Origin: Mesodorylaimus sp. YZB2_4 | Lineage: Eukaryota > Nematoda > Enoplea > Dorylaimida > Dorylaimidae | Direction: 5' to 3' | NCBI GenBank assembly: GCA_030248295.1 | Contig: JASANH010000908.1 | Span: 744,001 to 808,000, forward strand | Length of the DNA stretch: 64,000 nucleotides | In this document: positions 6,672 through 48,194 of the stretch, one piece after another | How the letters are laid out: each line of letters opens with the position of its first letter | Position numbering within the stretch: position 1 is the stretch's first letter | Made by a program: the position numbers and the translations under genes | The notes under the pieces: generated by a model | The model's input: the letters and a program-made list of their open reading frames with translations, nothing else | Databases searched by the model: none | Told to the model about the DNA's origin: nothing

Positions 6672-6880
6672 GGTAATGGTGTAACCCCCCGCCTGGTAGG
6701 CCATGGCGAGTGGGAGAGAGTAATCGATACTCTCCCCTGGCTGGGAAACGTCAACCCCTCGGGTTGATGTTTCAGCCGTAGGTATAGTCGCAAGACTATC
6801 CTGCTCCAGTCGGAGTTTCTGTCCCGCCGACTTCGGTCGGCCGCCTCCCTCCTACGCCTGCCAGGCCTGGTTACAATGGG
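6672..6880 (-). repeat. ~200-bp MITE, copy 1
   Basis: A copy of the short element best defined at 15828-16026, in opposite orientation. It begins with a GGTAATGGTGTAACC terminus and ends near GGTTACAATGG. Inside are the family's shared blocks: a GAGAGAGTAATCGATACTCTC palindrome-like core, CTGGCTGGGA, and a GTTGATGTTTC block before the AGTCGCAAGACTAT segment. It does not encode protein. Confidence 0.7.
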
Positions 6881-7082: not shown

Positions 7083-7269
7083 AGCGCACCCAGGCGGCGG
7101 GAGATAGACGAGACCGAAGTCTCTAAGCAAAACACTCCGAAGTCTCCAAGCAAAAAACTCCGACTGGACGTAGGCAAGTCTCGCGACTATACCTGCTCTA
7201 GAAACATCAACCGAAGAGGTTGACGTTCCAGCCAGGGGAGCGTATCGATTACTCCCGACCGCCTGGCGT
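7083..7269 (+). repeat. ~200-bp MITE, copy 2 (right end lost)
   Basis: It has the family's GCGCACCCAGGCGGCGGG start, the GAGACCGAAGTCTC block (duplicated here), the AAGTCTCGCGACTATACCTG block, ACATCAACC and the CAGCCAGGGGAG...ATCGATTAC block. It lacks the terminal GGTTAC motif: at 7270 it abuts the left arm of the foldback element, which suggests one element inserted into the other. Confidence 0.65.
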
Positions 7270-7631
7270 GGGCCTGTTTCACCACGACTCCCTGACTCCG
7301 GACGCGAAACCTATGGAGTCTGGAGTCCAAGGACCGGAGTCCGGAAAAAGAGCGTTTCACCGCGTACTCCGAAAAAGAGTCTAATTGCTGGAGCGGAAAA
7401 TTGACACCAAGGAGCAAGATGTGCAGGTTTAGTCCCACTCTACTCGCCTTCGTATGCTGGAGAGAGGCAAACTGTGAAAGATGCCATTGATGTCTTTGGT
7501 AATTTTGTTTTTGATCTTGCTCACTAATTTCGATTTGAAGGAGATGACAGTAATTAGCAATGCACGCATAATAAAATTATTACAAATTTTTTAATTTTTA
7601 AAAATGATTTTAAAATAGACGCATAGACTTA

Positions 7632-8235: not shown

Positions 8236-9055
8236 TGATGGTAATCAGTTTTTACCTGCTCTCTTAAAGATCAAACTGCCAATGCCACAATCTATGAAGA
8301 CACGTGCTTGAGTACGTTTCTCATGTGTTCATTCTTATTTTGTTTGGGGCACCCTAGCCTTTGTTCTACTAGTCTTATCGTTAGTTTCCATTTAGCAGGG
8401 CACGCACTATCATAAAACTACAGCATGTTCAACCACGAAGTATGAATCATAGTCGTTCTCTTATATCTTCCTTGTCATCAACCATCCCGCCGCGCTGCAA
8501 CTGCAGTCGGGGCCTACGTCCACATTTAGCAGGGTCATGCTATAGTATTGTAATTTTATCACGCTATTTTAAAATAATTTTAAAAAATTAAAAAAATTTG
8601 TAATAATTATATTATGTGTGCACTGCTAAATTACTGTCATTTCCTTCAAATCGAAATTAGTGAGCAAGATCAAAAACAAAATTACCAAAGACATCAATGG
8701 CATCTTTCACAGGGTGCCTCTCTCCAGCATACAAAGGCGAGTAGAGTGCGACTAAAACTGCACATCTTGCTCCTTGGTGTCAATTTTCCGCTCCAGCAAT
8801 TAGACTCCTTTTCGGAGTACGTGGTGAAACGCTCTTTTTCCGGACTCCGGTCCTGGGACTCCAGACTCCACAGGTTTCGCGTCCGGAGTCAGGGAGTCGT
8901 GGTGAAACAGGCCCGCCGGTCACATTCCTCCCACCGTTGGAAAAATGGCGTCCCCGCCATTCTCCAACTGGGAGAACCAACACTTCAGTGGTGGTGCCTT
9001 ATCAGCGCTAGGTGTTCCACCCACCGTCGCGCTAAGGCGCACCAAACGCTCGCCA

Positions 9056-12900: not shown

Positions 12901-14345
12901 GTCTACATGAGTATCTTTTGTGAACCCAGTCCGATTAGTCAATAACTCTGCACTTTTACCCAGTACATGTAGAGAATATGCGCGTGAACGAGCGACCCGG
13001 TCATGGCAACTTGGGTAAACAAGCGACCAATGCCCACTGCGGTACATACCTACATATGTACATGGCTAAAGGCCGCGCGTGCAGAGCAGCACTCGGGCAA
13101 TTTGACGGAGCTCCAAACTGAACTTACCACCAACAATTCTCCAGGTATCGGAACACCAAACGCCCTCTGAAATTTCGTATTCAGGTACAGTTTAATGATT
13201 AGTAAGCTCGTGATGGTCACTGCAGAAATGACGACTGTGGCCACGACAACCTCGTCTATTATCTCAAATAGGCCGATATAGGTCTGCAACAAAGTCCGTC
13301 ACGCCCCTGTACTTGGAAAACGCCTCTTTTACTTACCCGGATAATCTTCCCAACACCAGAATACCAAGGTAAATTTACGCCAAAAACGTATGTAACCTGC
13401 GATGTCATGGCGTGCACAGCAGCGCCACTCGTAAATCCGCCCACCAAACACTCGGATAAGTAATTTGAGAAGTAGCCAAAACGAAACACACCCATGATAA
13501 TCTGAAGAGATACTGCCGATGTGTTCCAGACTACACAGTATATCCAAATGGGGTGCGTGACTCTGGAACGTGGGTGGCTGATATTTACGTTCTTACCATA
13601 ATGAAGCCAGTCAGCATGGTCAAAGCAATGATTAACTCCCACGATGAAAAACACTCTGGACTGTTCCTTAGAGCCGGACTAGGCGTAATAATGTAATAAT
13701 TAGTGGACCCGTTGGACGCTTTGGACGCAGGATCGCAACCAGTTGCATAGTCACTTAAGGGGTCTGGAATGAATTTGTGTCTCGTATTGCCCATCATGAT
13801 ACTAACAACTGCGGGGGGACCTGAAAGGTGAGCTAAATCATTCTCTGACTTCACACCGTTTACGATTTTTGTGTACCAATTGCCGCTAATCTTGAAGTTC
13901 CCACGAAGAAGTACAAAATAGTTGGAAAAATATTGGAGTAAAGACCATAGACGGCCGGCACACCCGCAACGCCAGCATATGACATACCTACAAAGTGGAT
14001 TGTCGAGGCCGCCTGTGTAGCGAGTAGCAACGACTTACCTTGTGGGATGCTCATTATTCCGACAGTGATTCCAGCTACCACATCGCTTACCAAGTCCCTC
14101 CTCCATGTGTACTCCTGAGTCCAGGCAAGAAACGGCAGGAAAGAGCAAAGCCACGTTTTAAAACCTTCTTTGGTACAGGAACACCGTTTTTCAATTTCAT
14201 TTTTGGCTTTATATTTCCACGTGTAGTTTGTGGCTGTATCACCATTCGTCGAGGGCAAACCCTAAAAAAATACTTCTTGGTTGCCCTAAGTTAGCGAACT
14301 CGAACCACTTACGTTTGTAGTCGACCCGTTCTTCGATTTGTCCAT
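9992..14345 (-). CDS. SLC26 family anion transporter (16 exons, complete)
   Basis: Multi-pass plasma-membrane exchanger for sulfate, chloride, bicarbonate or oxalate. Exons, 5' to 3': 14313-14345, 14039-14261, 13877-13987, 13597-13820, 13337-13501, 13128-13283, 11740-12030, 11570-11683, 11225-11302, 11072-11167, 10899-11005, 10783-10840, 10430-10726, 10321-10375, 10176-10272, 9992-10100. All have GT-AG borders and consistent phase, giving 737 aa. Family signatures are DVVAGITVGIMSIPQGMSYA, AGVPAVYGLYSNIFP, GGFTSGAAVHAMTSQ, SLAKLYAKRNDYKIDANQE and SAGAKSQ. The C-terminal STAS domain includes GEPLYFANVDRYKRQVYE and YVIIDCSGFDYIDSMGVRAL. Overall it resembles the SLC26A5/A6 group, but substrate cannot be read from sequence. 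The first exon codes only 11 residues, so an earlier start is possible. The largest intron (12031-13127) holds a tRNA-like repeat. Confidence 0.95.
12425..12690 (+). repeat. tRNA-derived SINE candidate in SLC26 intron
   Basis: The segment has a tRNA-like A box (GTGGTCGCGCAGTGG at about 12440-12454) and, some 70 bases on, a B box (GGGTTTGATCCCC at about 12507-12519). These are the two internal RNA polymerase III promoter elements. The anticodon arm and acceptor stem are not convincing, and a non-tRNA body of about 150 bp follows, as in SINEs. It lies in the large SLC26 intron, antisense to that gene. Confidence 0.5.
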
Positions 14346-15827: not shown

Positions 15828-16026
15828 GGTTAGTGTAACCGGCGCACCCAGGCAGCGGGGGGGGGGGGGTCGAGACTGAAGTCTCCAGGTAAGCAACTCC
15901 AACTCACGGCAGACAAGTCTCACGACTATACCTGCCCTAGAAACATCAACCAGAGAGGTTGACGTCTCCCAGCCAGGGGAGTGTATCGATTACCCCCGAC
16001 CGCCAGGGATGCTGGTTACACTAGCC
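15828..16026 (+). repeat. ~200-bp MITE, best-defined copy
   Basis: This copy shows both ends. The left end is GGTTAGTGTAACC (15828-15840, itself a near-palindrome) and the right end is GGTTACACTAGCC (16014-16026), which form terminal inverted repeats. The body carries a GAGACTGAAGTCTC palindrome, the AAGTCTCACGACTATACCTG block, ACATCAACC next to GGTTGACGT, and CAGCCAGGGGAGTG with ATCGATTAC. A poly-G run near 15859 interrupts it. There is no reading frame. Length, inverted termini and several copies in the window fit a miniature inverted-repeat transposable element. Confidence 0.75.
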
Positions 16027-16124
16027 ATGCTGCATGTTCAGTAATCGTGCGCTCTCGCTCTACTCTGTTTTTTTGGATTGGGTGGGAGGCAGCGTAAACA
16101 CAAGCTGTGAAGCGTCCAGTAAAG

Positions 16125-16300
16125 TGCAGTTGCACAATGGACTTAAGACGCGTCTTAAATTCTGAGACGCGTCTCAAAAGTTAAGACACCATTTTTTGTT
16201 GCACAATCGATTAGACGTCTCAATTTAAGACAGCTAGCCGACTTAACTTTAAGACAGGGTAAACCCTGTCTTAAGTCACATTTTAGTGTCTCATCACTGT
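16125..16300. repeat. Left subterminal repeat array of the Harbinger element
   Basis: Within about 175 bp there are several TTAAGAC/GTCTTAA copies, an AGACGCGTCT palindrome repeated with variations, and a second GTTGCACAATCGATTAGACG copy of the terminal motif near 16199. Such arrays usually serve as binding sites for the element's own DNA-binding protein. Confidence 0.7.
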
Positions 16301-16358
16301 CAGTTTGAAGTCGTTCGTTCATAAAAATTTGTGAAAAAGTGAATTATTTTTGTCGGTC

Positions 16359-17429
16359 ATGGATTATTTGGATTATATCGAATATTTTGATGAAGCAATG
16401 TCAGGTGACGACGAAATCGAAAGACGACCGAAGCGATATCGTCAAAGATATCAACCAATATTAGAATTAGACGACGATCAATTAATCGACGATTACCGAT
16501 TTCCGAAAAACGTTATTATGGACATGGTGAACGAAATAGCGCCTCTACTCCAGCATAAAACAAATAAATCGATGGCGTTGTCCGCTGAATTGCAAACGAT
16601 GATCGCGTTAAAGTTTTTCGCTACGGGAGATCACTATAACACGTTAAAAGATGTTTTCAATGTGGACGAATCGACGGTGTGTCGAGCTATCGGACGGGTA
16701 ATCGATGCGTTATATTCGAAAAGGAAAAAATATATCGTCTTTCCGTCATCGACGCCGGAATATATTCGCAACGCAAGAGAATACGCCGATATCGCTGGAT
16801 TTCCGAACGTGATCGGTTGCGTCGATGGCACGCACGTGCCTATGTGTCCTTTACTGAAAGAAATCGAAGCGAGATACGTGTGTCGGAAAGGAGGACATTC
16901 GATAAATTGTCAAGTGATATGCGACGCGCAGTTACGATTTATTGACGTAGTTGCGAACTTTCCAGGAACGACGCATGATAGTTACATTTGGAATCAATGT
17001 AGCATCCGCGAAAAATTCGAGAACGGCGAAATCCCGGAAAATTTCTTATTATTGGGAGATAGTGGCTACGCGCTCAAACGTTATCTCATGACGCCGATCG
17101 CAAGTCCGAGGACCGTCGCCGAGAAAAATTATATGAAAAGTCAATGTAAAACGCGTTGTACGATCGAACGATGCATCGGTGTGCTGAAAGCACGGTTTCG
17201 ATGTCTACATATAACAACCAAATTACGCTTTCGATCGCCGGCTAAATGTTGCAAATTAGTGTACGCTTGTTGCGTCTTACACAACATCGCTCGCAACAAC
17301 AACATCGTCAATCCGGAACCGATTTTCGATGAGAACGATGGAGAAAATGGCGATCACGTTTTGTCGATAAATGGTGATCAAACGGGTAAAAACGCTAGGG
17401 ACAAAATTGTTCAATCTCGATTTACTTAA
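16359..17429 (+). CDS. Harbinger transposase (HARBI1-like, DDE)
   Basis: Cuts and pastes the surrounding Harbinger element. The intact single-exon frame gives 356 aa from the ATG at 16359; an upstream in-frame TTG is ignored. A predicted helix-turn-helix region (residues ~75-115, ending DESTVCRAIGRVI) precedes the DDE_Tnp_4 nuclease core. The catalytic triad is visible as D in IGCVDGTHVP, D in LLLGDSGYAL and E in RCTIERCIGVLKARF. No stop or frameshift interrupts it. Its partner gene is convergent on the minus strand, with stops only about 60 bp apart. The AT-rich codon use is unlike the host genes. Confidence 0.95.
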   Translation: MDYLDYIEYFDEAMSGDDEIERRPKRYRQRYQPILELDDDQLIDDYRFPKNVIMDMVNEIAPLLQHKTNKSMALSAELQTMIALKFFATGDHYNTLKDVFNVDESTVCRAIGRVIDALYSKRKKYIVFPSSTPEYIRNAREYADIAGFPNVIGCVDGTHVPMCPLLKEIEARYVCRKGGHSINCQVICDAQLRFIDVVANFPGTTHDSYIWNQCSIREKFENGEIPENFLLLGDSGYALKRYLMTPIASPRTVAEKNYMKSQCKTRCTIERCIGVLKARFRCLHITTKLRFRSPAKCCKLVYACCVLHNIARNNNIVNPEPIFDENDGENGDHVLSINGDQTGKNARDKIVQSRFT

Positions 17430-17492
17430 TCACTTTTTTAAATTGCTGCAATCGATACGTTCATTCATGTTAAGTGTCAAATTAAAAAAATA

Positions 17493-18461
17493 TCATTTGA
17501 TGTTCACTGCTTCGATTTCTTCGTCGTCCAAGTTCTCGAAAATCGCCTTCAACGTTTCCTCGTCGCCATCGGCGATTTTTTTCAATATTTTTTGATTCCA
17601 ATATACGCGTTGAAGAATCGCGGCACCTTGTTGTAATTTTTCGGTTTTCAACTTTTGCCTATACAGTTGCATTTTCAATTCGTGCTCTTTCGCAGCGAAA
17701 TCCGAGATTCGCTTTAATTGAGCGGCGTTCGATTTTTTCCCTTGTTTAGAAGTTGCCATAATTTCAGATTCTTTGTTGACATCGTCGTTATTTTTTCCAA
17801 AATTGACATTCTCGCCTATTATCGGAGCATTATCATCGTCGACCAATAACATACGATTAATTACGTCTACACGATCCATCCGATCGCCTTCCGTTCGATC
17901 GTCGTCAATCCGATCGCCGTCCGTTCGATCGTCGTCGTCAATCCGATCGCCTTCCGTTCGCTCGCCGACCGATCGCCCATCGCTCATTTGATCGACATCG
18001 TCGTTCTCCGGAATTATACCATCTATTAGCTCGGGATGCACGATTTGACCTAATAATTCTTCTTCTGGCGATAAAATATGCGTTATCGAACTTTTGCCTC
18101 CTCCAGTAATTTTTCTCTCCTTTCGACGTTTCATTTCATCGCTTTTAAATCCCATTTTCAAATTTCTGAGCTTACGTTTTACTTCGACGACCGTACGCTG
18201 AACGGTTGAAACCGCATTGACCGCTTGAACCACTTCGTTCCACGATTTGTTTAATTTTTCCCGATACGACGGCAAATCCGATGCGTTTTCAAATATCGAT
18301 TTCCGTTCGTTATACGAAGTCAATAAGGCTTCGCGTTCCGCTGAAGTAAAATTCGGTCGACGAGCCGTTTTTCCGTTTTCTTTCGTTTTATCGATTTTCG
18401 CCAATATTTTGCTTATCAGTGCCTTTTTTAATGTCTTTTTTATTTTCGATGCCATTTTCAA
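17493..18461 (-). CDS. Harbinger accessory Myb/SANT-like DNA-binding protein
   Basis: In Harbinger systems a Myb-like protein imports the transposase into the nucleus and brings it to the element ends. This intact 322-aa frame has a basic N-terminus, a trihelical Myb/SANT-like domain (residues ~35-110: FTSAEREALLTSYNERKSIF, then KSWNEVVQAVNAV and KVKRKLRNLKMGFKSD-like helices), an acidic middle and a C-terminal coiled-coil region (~255-310). The middle contains a DRTEGDRIDDD-type repeat encoded by a small tandem array at about 17880-17960. A second in-frame ATG two codons downstream is an alternative start. Confidence 0.85.
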   Translation of the reverse strand: MKMASKIKKTLKKALISKILAKIDKTKENGKTARRPNFTSAEREALLTSYNERKSIFENASDLPSYREKLNKSWNEVVQAVNAVSTVQRTVVEVKRKLRNLKMGFKSDEMKRRKERKITGGGKSSITHILSPEEELLGQIVHPELIDGIIPENDDVDQMSDGRSVGERTEGDRIDDDDRTDGDRIDDDRTEGDRMDRVDVINRMLLVDDDNAPIIGENVNFGKNNDDVNKESEIMATSKQGKKSNAAQLKRISDFAAKEHELKMQLYRQKLKTEKLQQGAAILQRVYWNQKILKKIADGDEETLKAIFENLDDEEIEAVNIK

Positions 18462-18589
18462 AAAATGTTAAACCAAATAACTACGATTATAAAACTAAAC
18501 GGATTTTATTGAACTTGTAAAATAAAAATAAGTTATCGATTTTGCGACAGTTTTTATTTTTCCCGCTAAATTTGTCTGCTACCATGTCT

Positions 18590-18784
18590 TAAAACGGCGA
18601 TTTTTAGATTGTGCAACTAGTTAAGACAAAACTTAAGACGAGCTTAACTTTGAGATAATCAGCGTCTAAGACGTCAATTGTGCAACTGAATTGAGACGCG
18701 TCTCAGCGTCCGCTTAACTATTGTCTCAATTTCTGTCTTAACTGCTGAGAGTGTCTTAAATTTAAGCGCGATTGTGCAACTGCA
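18590..18784. repeat. Right subterminal repeat array of the Harbinger element
   Basis: Mirrors the left end: TTAAGAC/GTCTTAA motifs, GAGACGCGTCTC, and internal ATTGTGCAACT copies near 18616 and 18678 before the terminal one at 18771-18784. Confidence 0.7.
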
Positions 18785-20927: not shown

Positions 20928-22763
20928 GGCACTTATGCGCTTTACGGGGCACAGAAAAATTTTCCAAGTCCGGTCAGGACTTAGAAGAAAATATATATAA
21001 GTCCGAATCTGGCACAACGTGCCAAGTTGTGCTGATAGAACCAGTCGGTGTGTGAATATGACCTAGGCCCTGGCCTGGCTGGACTAAAAACTAGTTGATG
21101 GGCATGGCGGGGGGAAAATAATTAGGAGAACGCAAGACAAGGTATGAATGACAAGGGTAGATACCACCAAAAGATTGCTGATGCGCCTAGTTTCTGATAG
21201 TAACTTGGACTTGTACTTCTCCTCTGATTAATGGCGGAACCCATTTTTGATGTTCGAAACGTCTTATTGTCTGACTTTTTTCGAATCACTCGTTCAGAAG
21301 AGAGATCGATCAGCTGGTGTCAGCAGCACGATTTGCTATGGCAATACCCACTATGTATGGTCTGCGGTGACTTGATGAATTACGACTCGCATGGGCAAAG
21401 GTTCCGATGCCTAAGTAGACCCTGTGCTGGCCGCATGCGCTACCAGTATATCAGAAAAGGAACTTGGTTTGAGGGCTCCCATCTATCAGTCTCGCAAATC
21501 TTGCAGTTCACTTATTTTTGGGCCATGGATCGTTTTCATCAATCTGATTACATGGAGCAGTTAGGAATCGGCAGCGAGCACACAGTAGTCGACTGGAAAA
21601 ATTATTGCCGAGATATTTGTGGTCAGTATTTGGTCCAGCATCTTGTGCTTCTGGGTGGCCCTGGCACAACAGTCGAAGTGGACGAGTGCATGCTTGTGCG
21701 ACGAAAATATAACCGCGGCCGTATTGTCAAGCATCAATGGGTGTTTGGTGGTGCAGAAGTAGGAACTGCCAAATGCTTTTTGGTCGCCGTCGAAAAGCGC
21801 GACACCAAAACCTTGCTTCCGCTCATCTACAAATACATCCGTCCAGGAACAACTGTAGTCTCAGACGACTGGAAAGCGTATGAAGCTTTGGATCGCGAGA
21901 ACCCACCCCCGCTACATTTACCAGCGAGTAGTCCACAAGTACAACTTCAAAGACCCTGAAACCGGCGCCTGCACGAATCATATTGAATCTACCTGGCAGA
22001 AGGCTAAGCAAGCCCACAAGGCCCGATATGGCACATATCGCGCGCTGTTGGATACTTACCTCGCAGAGTTTATGTGGAGAAAGTTGTTTCCTACGAATGC
22101 TTTTCATCACTTAGTGTCTCAGATTAGGGAGCTGTACCCAGTTATTAGTGAGAACGATTATAAGGCTTAATGAGATGATAATGAGGTGAGATAAGCTTGT
22201 TTAGGTTCGGTCGGATATGAAATGAGTTGACAGGATTGGAAAAGGTTGAAAACTAATTTTAAGTCAGAGGGCGCAGCTGAGTGAACGCATCATCTCAGCA
22301 AATTTTGCTGACGTCAAGTGGGCCGCCACAATTGACGATGATGAAATTCATGTAGGCGAGTATATAGCACGCGTTATTATAGTCTTCCGCGCAACGCCAG
22401 CCCAATCGATAGCAATAGAACCTCTATCTTCTCAAACCCGTCAAGGCGAAGTTTCAGGCCTATTAGACTACCTAGCGATGAGCCGCCTTTTGCCTCATGG
22501 CCCTGAAGGGTGGTGTAGCGGGTGCGTGGGCATACCCACTTCTGTATATGCTCGTGTAAACGTTCTATCATTCGCCCAGCTGTCCCTGCGCCAGCTGAAG
22601 CGTCTGTCAGATCCACGAGTTGGATTGGAAACAGCCGCTTGAGCCCAAAAGTTTTCTGAGTCGGTAGGCTCGGGAGATTTTCCAAGTCGTGACGGGACTT
22701 ACAAAATTTTCCACCTGTCGGACTTGGAAATTTTTTCTGTGCCCCGTAAAGTGCACAAGTACC
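20928..22763 (+). mobile_element. Merlin DNA transposon
   Basis: Long terminal inverted repeats are visible. The left end (20928-20972) runs from GGCACTTATGCGCTTTACGG through CACAGAAAAATTTTCC. The right end (22719-22763) is its reverse complement with only a few differences. Between them is a transposase of the ISXO2/IS1016 type that defines eukaryotic Merlin elements. I find no convincing 8-9-bp target duplication. The transposase is frameshifted, so this copy should be non-autonomous. Confidence 0.9.
21231..22170 (+). pseudogene. Merlin transposase, frameshifted
   Basis: The ATG at 21231 opens a 242-codon frame. It contains a zinc-ribbon-like N-terminus (CMVCGDLM ... CLSRPCAG, residues ~44-65), the first catalytic Asp in TTVEVDECMLVRRKYNRGR and the second in TTVVSDDWKAYEAL. 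At about 21895-21910, in a C-rich run, the reading moves to another frame that carries the rest of the core: the HKYNFKDP segment, the catalytic Glu in CTNHIESTWQKAK, and the end at 22170. A single small indel explains this. No introns are seen. The homology is to animal Merlin and bacterial IS1016 transposases, not to a host gene. Confidence 0.93.
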
Positions 22764-46529: not shown

Positions 46530-46702
46530 CGGCCAGGCGTAGGAGAGAATGTGGCCGACCAAATACTCCGGTAAGTCTCGCGACTATGCTCATACCTACG
46601 GCTGGAACATCAACCCTAGAGCTTGACGCCTTCCAGCCAGGGTAGAGTATCGATCACTCTCTCCTCCATGCCAAGGCCCGGAGGCAGCGGGTTACACCAG
46701 CC
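46530..46702 (+). repeat. ~200-bp MITE, diverged copy
   Basis: Contains the AAGTCTCGCGACTAT block, ACATCAACC next to a TTGACG block, CCAGCCAGGGTAGAGTATCGAT, and the GGTTACACCAGCC end near 46690-46702. The left half is diverged. Confidence 0.6.
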
Positions 46703-48019: not shown

Positions 48020-48194
48020 AGCGCACCCAAGCGGCGTGGTGTGAGACCGAAGTCTCTGGGACGAAGACTCTGACTGGAGGAAGGCAAATATCGCGACCTT
48101 TACCTGCCGCTAAAACATCAACCGGAGTAATTGACGTCTCCCAGTCAGAGGAGAGAATCAATCTTTCGGCAGCCAGGAATGCTGGTTAGAACAC
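48020..48194 (+). repeat. ~200-bp MITE, copy
   Basis: Begins AAGCGCACCCAAGCGGCG and contains GAGACCGAAGTCTC, ACATCAACCGGAG with TTGACGTCTCCCAGTCAG, and the GCTGGTTAGAACACC end at 48181-48195. It is diverged but nearly full length. Confidence 0.65.

Follow-up and report, generated by a model that had tools for sequence, protein, structure and literature searches.

Introduction

Is the DNA at positions 16125-18784 of the window (the whole 64-kb stretch that was analyzed) a complete Harbinger transposon and, if so, into what kind of target did it insert? A sequence-only reading had described it as an apparently intact, possibly recently active Harbinger element carrying both of its genes. Based on the one copy in the 64-kb window, we found that a two-gene transposon of the PHIS type (PHIS being the PIF/Harbinger-ISL2EU-Spy superfamily) spans 16125-18784, with a length of 2.66 kb, or 2.65 kb if the excised element is read without the flanking TGCA target. 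It looks complete, moves by cut and paste as far as its PIF/Harbinger (PHIS) membership tells, and is as such of a known kind. The identification as Harbinger therefore stands for a two-gene, Harbinger-type element with its ends, arrays and domains, but not for Harbinger in the narrow sense, since no 3-bp target-site duplication was found. Two things about the element are unusual, namely that no 3-bp duplication was found and that its composition is strongly foreign; the remainder is mostly ordinary. Taken as a whole, the best explanation, and one that we hold with considerable confidence, is a complete, probably recently inserted PHIS element at 16125-18784 that would have entered a palindromic TGCA target by a two-protein mechanism.

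Results

The transposase and its Myb/SANT-like partner

The DDE transposase is encoded on the forward strand (16359-17429) as a single open frame of 356 aa with a match to DDE_Tnp_4, and the Myb/SANT-like partner on the reverse strand (17493-18455) as a single open frame of 320 aa with an N-terminal Myb/SANT domain. The two genes are arranged tail to tail with a gap of 63 bp, and the earlier description of both frames as uninterrupted is confirmed. Chance open reading frames were ruled out: when the element was randomized 300 times under a first-order model, its longest ATG-initiated frame averaged 94 aa and reached at most 196 aa, compared with 356 and 320 aa here.

The DDE catalytic domain of the PHIS superfamily is present as a match to the whole DDE_Tnp_4 profile (Pfam PF13359, residues 1-158 of 158, E 2.5e-34), a model that covers Harbinger transposases. 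By the motifs of this family, the putative catalytic triad would be D156 (16824-16826), D207 (16977-16979) and E270 (17166-17168). A helix-turn-helix match in the transposase (PF13613, E 0.0034) scored 17.4 bits, under the curated cut-off of 27. The partner matched Myb_DNA-bind_5 (PF13873) with an E-value of 3.7e-14 and 52.8 bits, against a cut-off of 21.7, and thus provides the Myb/SANT second ORF of the PIF/Harbinger group; its match to Myb_DNA-bind_4 was only slightly over the cut-off. The partner also carries an acidic repeat stretch and a long C-terminal helix predicted at low confidence. At the DNA level, short repeats of ~15 and ~30 bp at 17860-18000 encode this acidic, DRIDDDRTEGDR-like stretch, which is perhaps a fast-evolving linker. 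No AATAAA was seen in the ~270-300 bases scanned after either stop codon; the variant signals located there were ATTAAA past the transposase gene, and AATGAA and AGTAAA past the partner gene.

Single-sequence AlphaFold models of the two proteins had mean pLDDT values of 35.6 and 53.1, a confidence too low for use. In a search of the sequences of solved structures, the transposase had two weak matches with unrelated names (E-values of 0.57 and 0.72) and the partner had none. Scans of viral and genome contigs (prokaryotes and viruses) with transposase and partner peptides gave 1, 12, 11 and 86 stretches and no confirmed relative; being based on exact matches to 8-residue peptides, they detect close relatives only. 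The left end, used as a DNA pattern, had no match in viral contigs, and a tblastn search with the transposase gave no match in phages and two Streptomyces records at ~25% identity among plasmids. Since the searches for relatives covered prokaryotes and viruses, absence from them says little about animals.

Terminal repeats and subterminal arrays

The two ends, TGCAGTTGCACAAT and ATTGTGCAACTGCA, are complementary at 14 of 14 positions. The claim of perfect 14-bp terminal inverted repeats (TIRs) is accordingly right as to their complementarity, but the ends are better read as a 10-bp end motif plus TGCA. On the left, TGCA occupies 16125-16128 (a putative 4-bp duplication, or a 2-bp duplication of its inner GC, or part of the TIR) and is followed by the TIR core, GTTGCACAAT, at 16129-16138 (+). 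On the right, the core lies at 18771-18780 (-) and the second TGCA, again a putative target duplication, at 18781-18784. Further inward-facing copies of GTTGCACAAT are found at 16198-16207 (+), 69 bp from the left terminal copy, at 18677-18686 (-), 94 bp inside the right terminal copy, and at 18608-18617 (-), 69 bp inside the middle one. The 69-bp step is therefore common to both ends, with a spacing of 94 bp between the two outermost copies on the right. All five exact copies in the 64-kb window belong to the element (two left, three right) and face inward. When up to one mismatch was allowed, nine copies were counted in the window compared with 5.9 expected, and the four outside the element correspond to chance level.

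Inside the TIR cores lie two subterminal arrays. The left array (16139-16276) comprises eight TTRAGAC sites, on both strands, together with GACGCGTC palindromes, and the right array (18585-18770) contains seven such sites. Counting both strands, TTRAGAC is absent between the arrays, and the remaining 61,340 bp of the window contain eight sites. In 2000 pairs of first-order random ends the mean was 0.23 sites and the maximum four, compared with 15 here; as the motif was chosen after viewing the sequence, this count is a description and not a blind test. Both arrays are thus present, as had been claimed; whether they are "preserved" is a question of comparing copies. The ends also share an exact 16-bp inverted repeat, CTGAGACGCGTCTCAA, at 16162-16177 and 18691-18706. 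The window contains 67 exact inverted pairs of 14 nt at spacings of 1.5-6 kb, 38 of which were set aside because they come from one inverted repeat at 7.3/8.9 kb; the remaining 29 fall in the element (4), in the ends of another transposon (7) and in G-runs (18).

The insertion site

At each of 12 possible TIR starts we sought direct repeats, 2-9 bp long and without mismatch. None of the 12 gave the 3-bp target duplication for which the sequence-only reading had proposed to look. The direct repeats that fall within the 14-bp end are TGCA (4 bp, with the TIR starting at 16129) and GC (2 bp, starting at 16128); outside it, a start at 16123 gives a 2-bp AA. TGCA reads the same on both strands and so resembles four extra TIR bases, and the palindrome fails to separate a duplication from a longer TIR. 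The copy therefore allows a 4-bp duplication (TGCA), a 2-bp duplication (GC) or none. The first base of the TIR would be A with a 2-bp duplication, G with a 4-bp one, and T or C with none; TIRs of the PIF/Harbinger group usually begin with A or G.

The internal copies of the end motif bear upon this choice. The three are preceded by TTTT, TTCA and ACTA, so that none carries the full TGCA prefix, and we therefore consider the core to be GTTGCACAAT (or AGTTGCACAAT), with TGCA separable from it. An A stands directly ahead of GTTG in four of the five motif copies. The predicted empty site, AAAGTGCATCAA, is common to the 2-bp, the 4-bp and the mid-TGCA no-duplication readings, which therefore cannot be separated at this locus. 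Within the window there is no empty site, as the joined flanks match across the junction only the locus itself, nor is there another copy or MITE (the outside match with the lowest E-value is 22 bp long, E 0.34). Chimeric ends could also account for the odd flanks of a single copy. In the portions of the open-licence literature available to us, no TGCA target was seen for Harbinger, and TGCA is found there as a motif of LTR retrotransposons. We regard a new target-site variant, based on this single copy, as possible.

A foreign dinucleotide signature

The observed/expected ratio of CpG in 238 windows of 1 kb outside the element was 0.97 ± 0.19, with a maximum of 1.53, whereas windows within the element reached up to 2.43. 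The coding block has ratios of 2.26 for CpG, 0.53 for ApG and 0.78 for CpA, compared with 0.96, 0.96 and 1.13 elsewhere in the window, and the CpG ratios of the two genes are 2.22 and 2.30. The dinucleotide distance of the coding block from the rest of the window was 0.289; in 115 outside segments of equal length this distance averaged 0.063 and never exceeded 0.134. As the CpG and ApG values of the genes lie beyond those of all outside segments examined, they suggest arrival from another species, and we read the composition as that of a recent newcomer, presumably by horizontal transfer, from a species whose mutational signature differs. The proposal that the element was recently active would likewise fit its intact structure and foreign signature.

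CpG across codon boundaries was counted 51 and 48 times in the two element genes, compared with 32.9 ± 3.2 and 29.0 ± 3.0 in 300 synonymous shuffles (5-6 sd). As a control, four of five other frames also exceeded their own shuffles, the PHD frame by ~3 sd (38 vs. 26.4 ± 3.5), so a mild excess of this kind is also a trait of the host; the fifth, the other transposase, fell below its shuffles. That ISXO2-like frame (21228-21959) has a host-like CpG of ~0.8-1.0 by codon position. The non-coding, non-array pieces of the element (274 bp) have a CpG ratio of 1.92 (10 seen vs. 5.2 expected) and an ApG ratio of 0.63. Both values were reached by one in 5000 random triples of host pieces, and by 7 in 2000 triples limited to a GC content of up to 0.38, an imperfect match to the 0.28 of the pieces themselves. 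The arrays have no ApG deficit (1.28 and 1.31), as is expected if the AAGAC motif fixes their bases.

Surroundings of the element

Ten further frames in the window were scanned. Seven have Pfam matches (ISXO2-like transposase, PHD, SPOC, Rieske, WD40-type, sulfate permease and phospholipase A2) and three have none; the Rieske frame presumably resembles DAF-36, by which the host would be an animal with split genes, probably a nematode. Of the sulfate-permease frames, the first one found (13860-14261, -) has the element on its upstream side. No tRNA genes or Rfam families were detected in the 64-kb window. The left flank holds a dispersed repeat (15878-16004) that is 86% identical to 7139-7263 and stops short of the insertion in the alignments; the other copies of this ~80-150 bp repeat are at 6718-6818, 46592-46699 and 48043-48188, and those aligned are 75-87% identical.

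A second transposon occupies 20928-22763. Its inverted ends (20928-20972 and 22719-22763) are 91% identical over 45 bp and enclose the ISXO2-like DDE frame. Such transposases are linked to Merlin, and the element is probably a Merlin-type transposon; a target duplication of 7-11 bp, with one mismatch allowed, was absent at the 14 starts tried. The window further contains a 351-bp inverted repeat (7270-7618 and 8564-8914) whose arms are 95% identical and separated by ~0.95 kb. It may be a foldback element or one with long TIRs, and the sole direct repeat found for it was a 4-bp GGCC at an inner start.

Discussion

How might such an element move? We propose that the Myb/SANT-like protein would bind the subterminal TTRAGAC arrays, bring about nuclear entry of the DDE transposase and deliver it to the ends, where the transposase would recognize the GTTGCACAAT end motif. 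The pairing of TTRAGAC with the partner and of GTTGCACAAT with the transposase is one that we infer from the sequence. The transposase would then excise the 2.65-kb element and reinsert it at a palindromic TGCA target, leaving, most simply, a 4-bp TGCA duplication, although a stagger that leaves a 2-bp GC or no duplication is also possible. A bolder reading would be that of an autonomous two-gene Harbinger relative with a TGCA target and an even stagger (4-bp TGCA or 2-bp GC), which would constitute a seventh PHIS target-site group and would have arrived recently from a very CpG-rich, ApG-poor species; we put this forward tentatively, at somewhat less than even chances.

The flanks could also be those of an ordinary PIF/Harbinger element whose true 3-bp duplication was lost, either because its ends derive from different insertions by recombination or because a flank has mutated. 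The coding content and the Myb partner are indeed those of PIF/Harbinger, for which TWA duplications are reported, and the same source mentions two Harbinger families in Repbase that lack a distinct duplication (PMC4482050). Yet if all 14 bases are counted as TIR, the flanking triplets, AAG and TCA, agree at none of three positions, while the ends match each other and both frames are open, and we judge such a loss improbable. We give a similarly low probability to a two-gene, Spy-like relative that makes no target duplication and has a TIR of 12-14 bp (TGCAGTTGCACAAT or CAGTTGCACAAT). It would accord with the lack of an unambiguous duplication and with the published account of Spy, which inserts inside a palindrome without duplicating it; but that account gives Spy a transposase alone and an AAATTT target (PMC4482050), whereas here there is a Myb partner, and a full TGCA precedes none of the three end motifs that lie internally.

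The CpG-rich, ApG-poor signature might have arisen through codon selection in the present host, with no horizontal arrival. The two genes show the signature most clearly, and some excess of codon-boundary CpG exists in four of the five other frames, including that of ~3 sd in the PHD frame. Against this stand the 5-6 sd by which both element genes exceed their 300 synonymous shuffles, and the non-coding pieces, which share the high CpG (1.92) and low ApG (0.63) that so few host triples attain (1/5000; 7/2000 when GC-limited); we therefore think this origin rather unlikely. Finally, the two frames might be a domesticated gene pair instead of a mobile element. Both are open, and insects are reported to have co-domesticated pairs of this type (PMC9710019). 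The same source takes a lack of TIRs and target duplications as a mark of domestication, whereas terminal ends and subterminal arrays are present here and the composition of the element is foreign, so we rejected this idea as very improbable.

What, then, would the insertion of a complete PHIS element at TGCA mean? If true, a palindromic TGCA site in a two-gene element would show that an element can keep its Myb-partnered architecture and yet acquire a different cut stagger, because the grouping of PHIS elements rests on the target duplication (PMC4482050). Active PHIS members are useful as gene-transfer tools, and an active insect Spy is reported in PMC11304231. A transposon of foreign signature amid normal host DNA is also well suited to a clear test of whether such elements pass horizontally between animals.

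Comparison with known elements

By the published grouping (PMC4482050), the present copy matches none of the six PHIS groups. The 3-bp TWA duplication of PIF/Harbinger was found at none of the 12 TIR starts of this one copy. The ANT duplication of Pangu, the CWG duplication of NuwaI and the TNA or CTNAG duplication of NuwaII (C-TNA-G as a target) are likewise absent; CAG and CTG do occur at the two ends of the element, but as reverse complements and not as a direct repeat. ISL2EU makes AT duplications, whereas the candidate 2-bp repeat here is GC, the partner is Myb/SANT-like, and no YqaJ match is listed. Spy makes no duplication and inserts within an AAATTT palindrome, which is absent from the site, and a second gene is present here. 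The two Repbase Harbinger families without distinct duplications were left unplaced by the authors (PMC4482050); an odd flank alone therefore has precedent.

Like the PIF/Harbinger group, the element combines a DDE_Tnp_4-type transposase, a Myb/SANT second gene and short TIRs; unlike that group, it has a TGCA palindrome at the insertion site in place of the 3-bp (TWA) duplication, and its 2.66 kb compare with a reported mean of ~4.1 kb (PMC4482050). It shares with NuwaI and NuwaII a pair of genes that includes a Myb/SANT partner, and differs in lacking their CWG and TNA (CTNAG) duplications. Turmoil-1 of C. elegans is a nematode element with a Harbinger-type transposase, but it is 5 kb long and has 760-bp inverted repeats (PMC2572040). 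The zebrafish Harbinger3_DR, as described in PMC9710019, also encodes two proteins. The Myb-like one of the pair recognizes a subterminal motif of 9 bp, and its interaction with the transposase is required for nuclear entry of both. By analogy with this system, the subterminal arrays would fit binding by the Myb-like partner. Spy and ISL2EU differ from the present element in their genes, Spy being a single-gene element whereas a Myb partner is found here besides the transposase, and the partner in ISL2EU being YqaJ instead of Myb/SANT. They resemble it in their palindromic targets, with duplications of 0 bp in Spy and 2 bp in ISL2EU (PMC4482050), so even-numbered staggers do occur within the PHIS superfamily.
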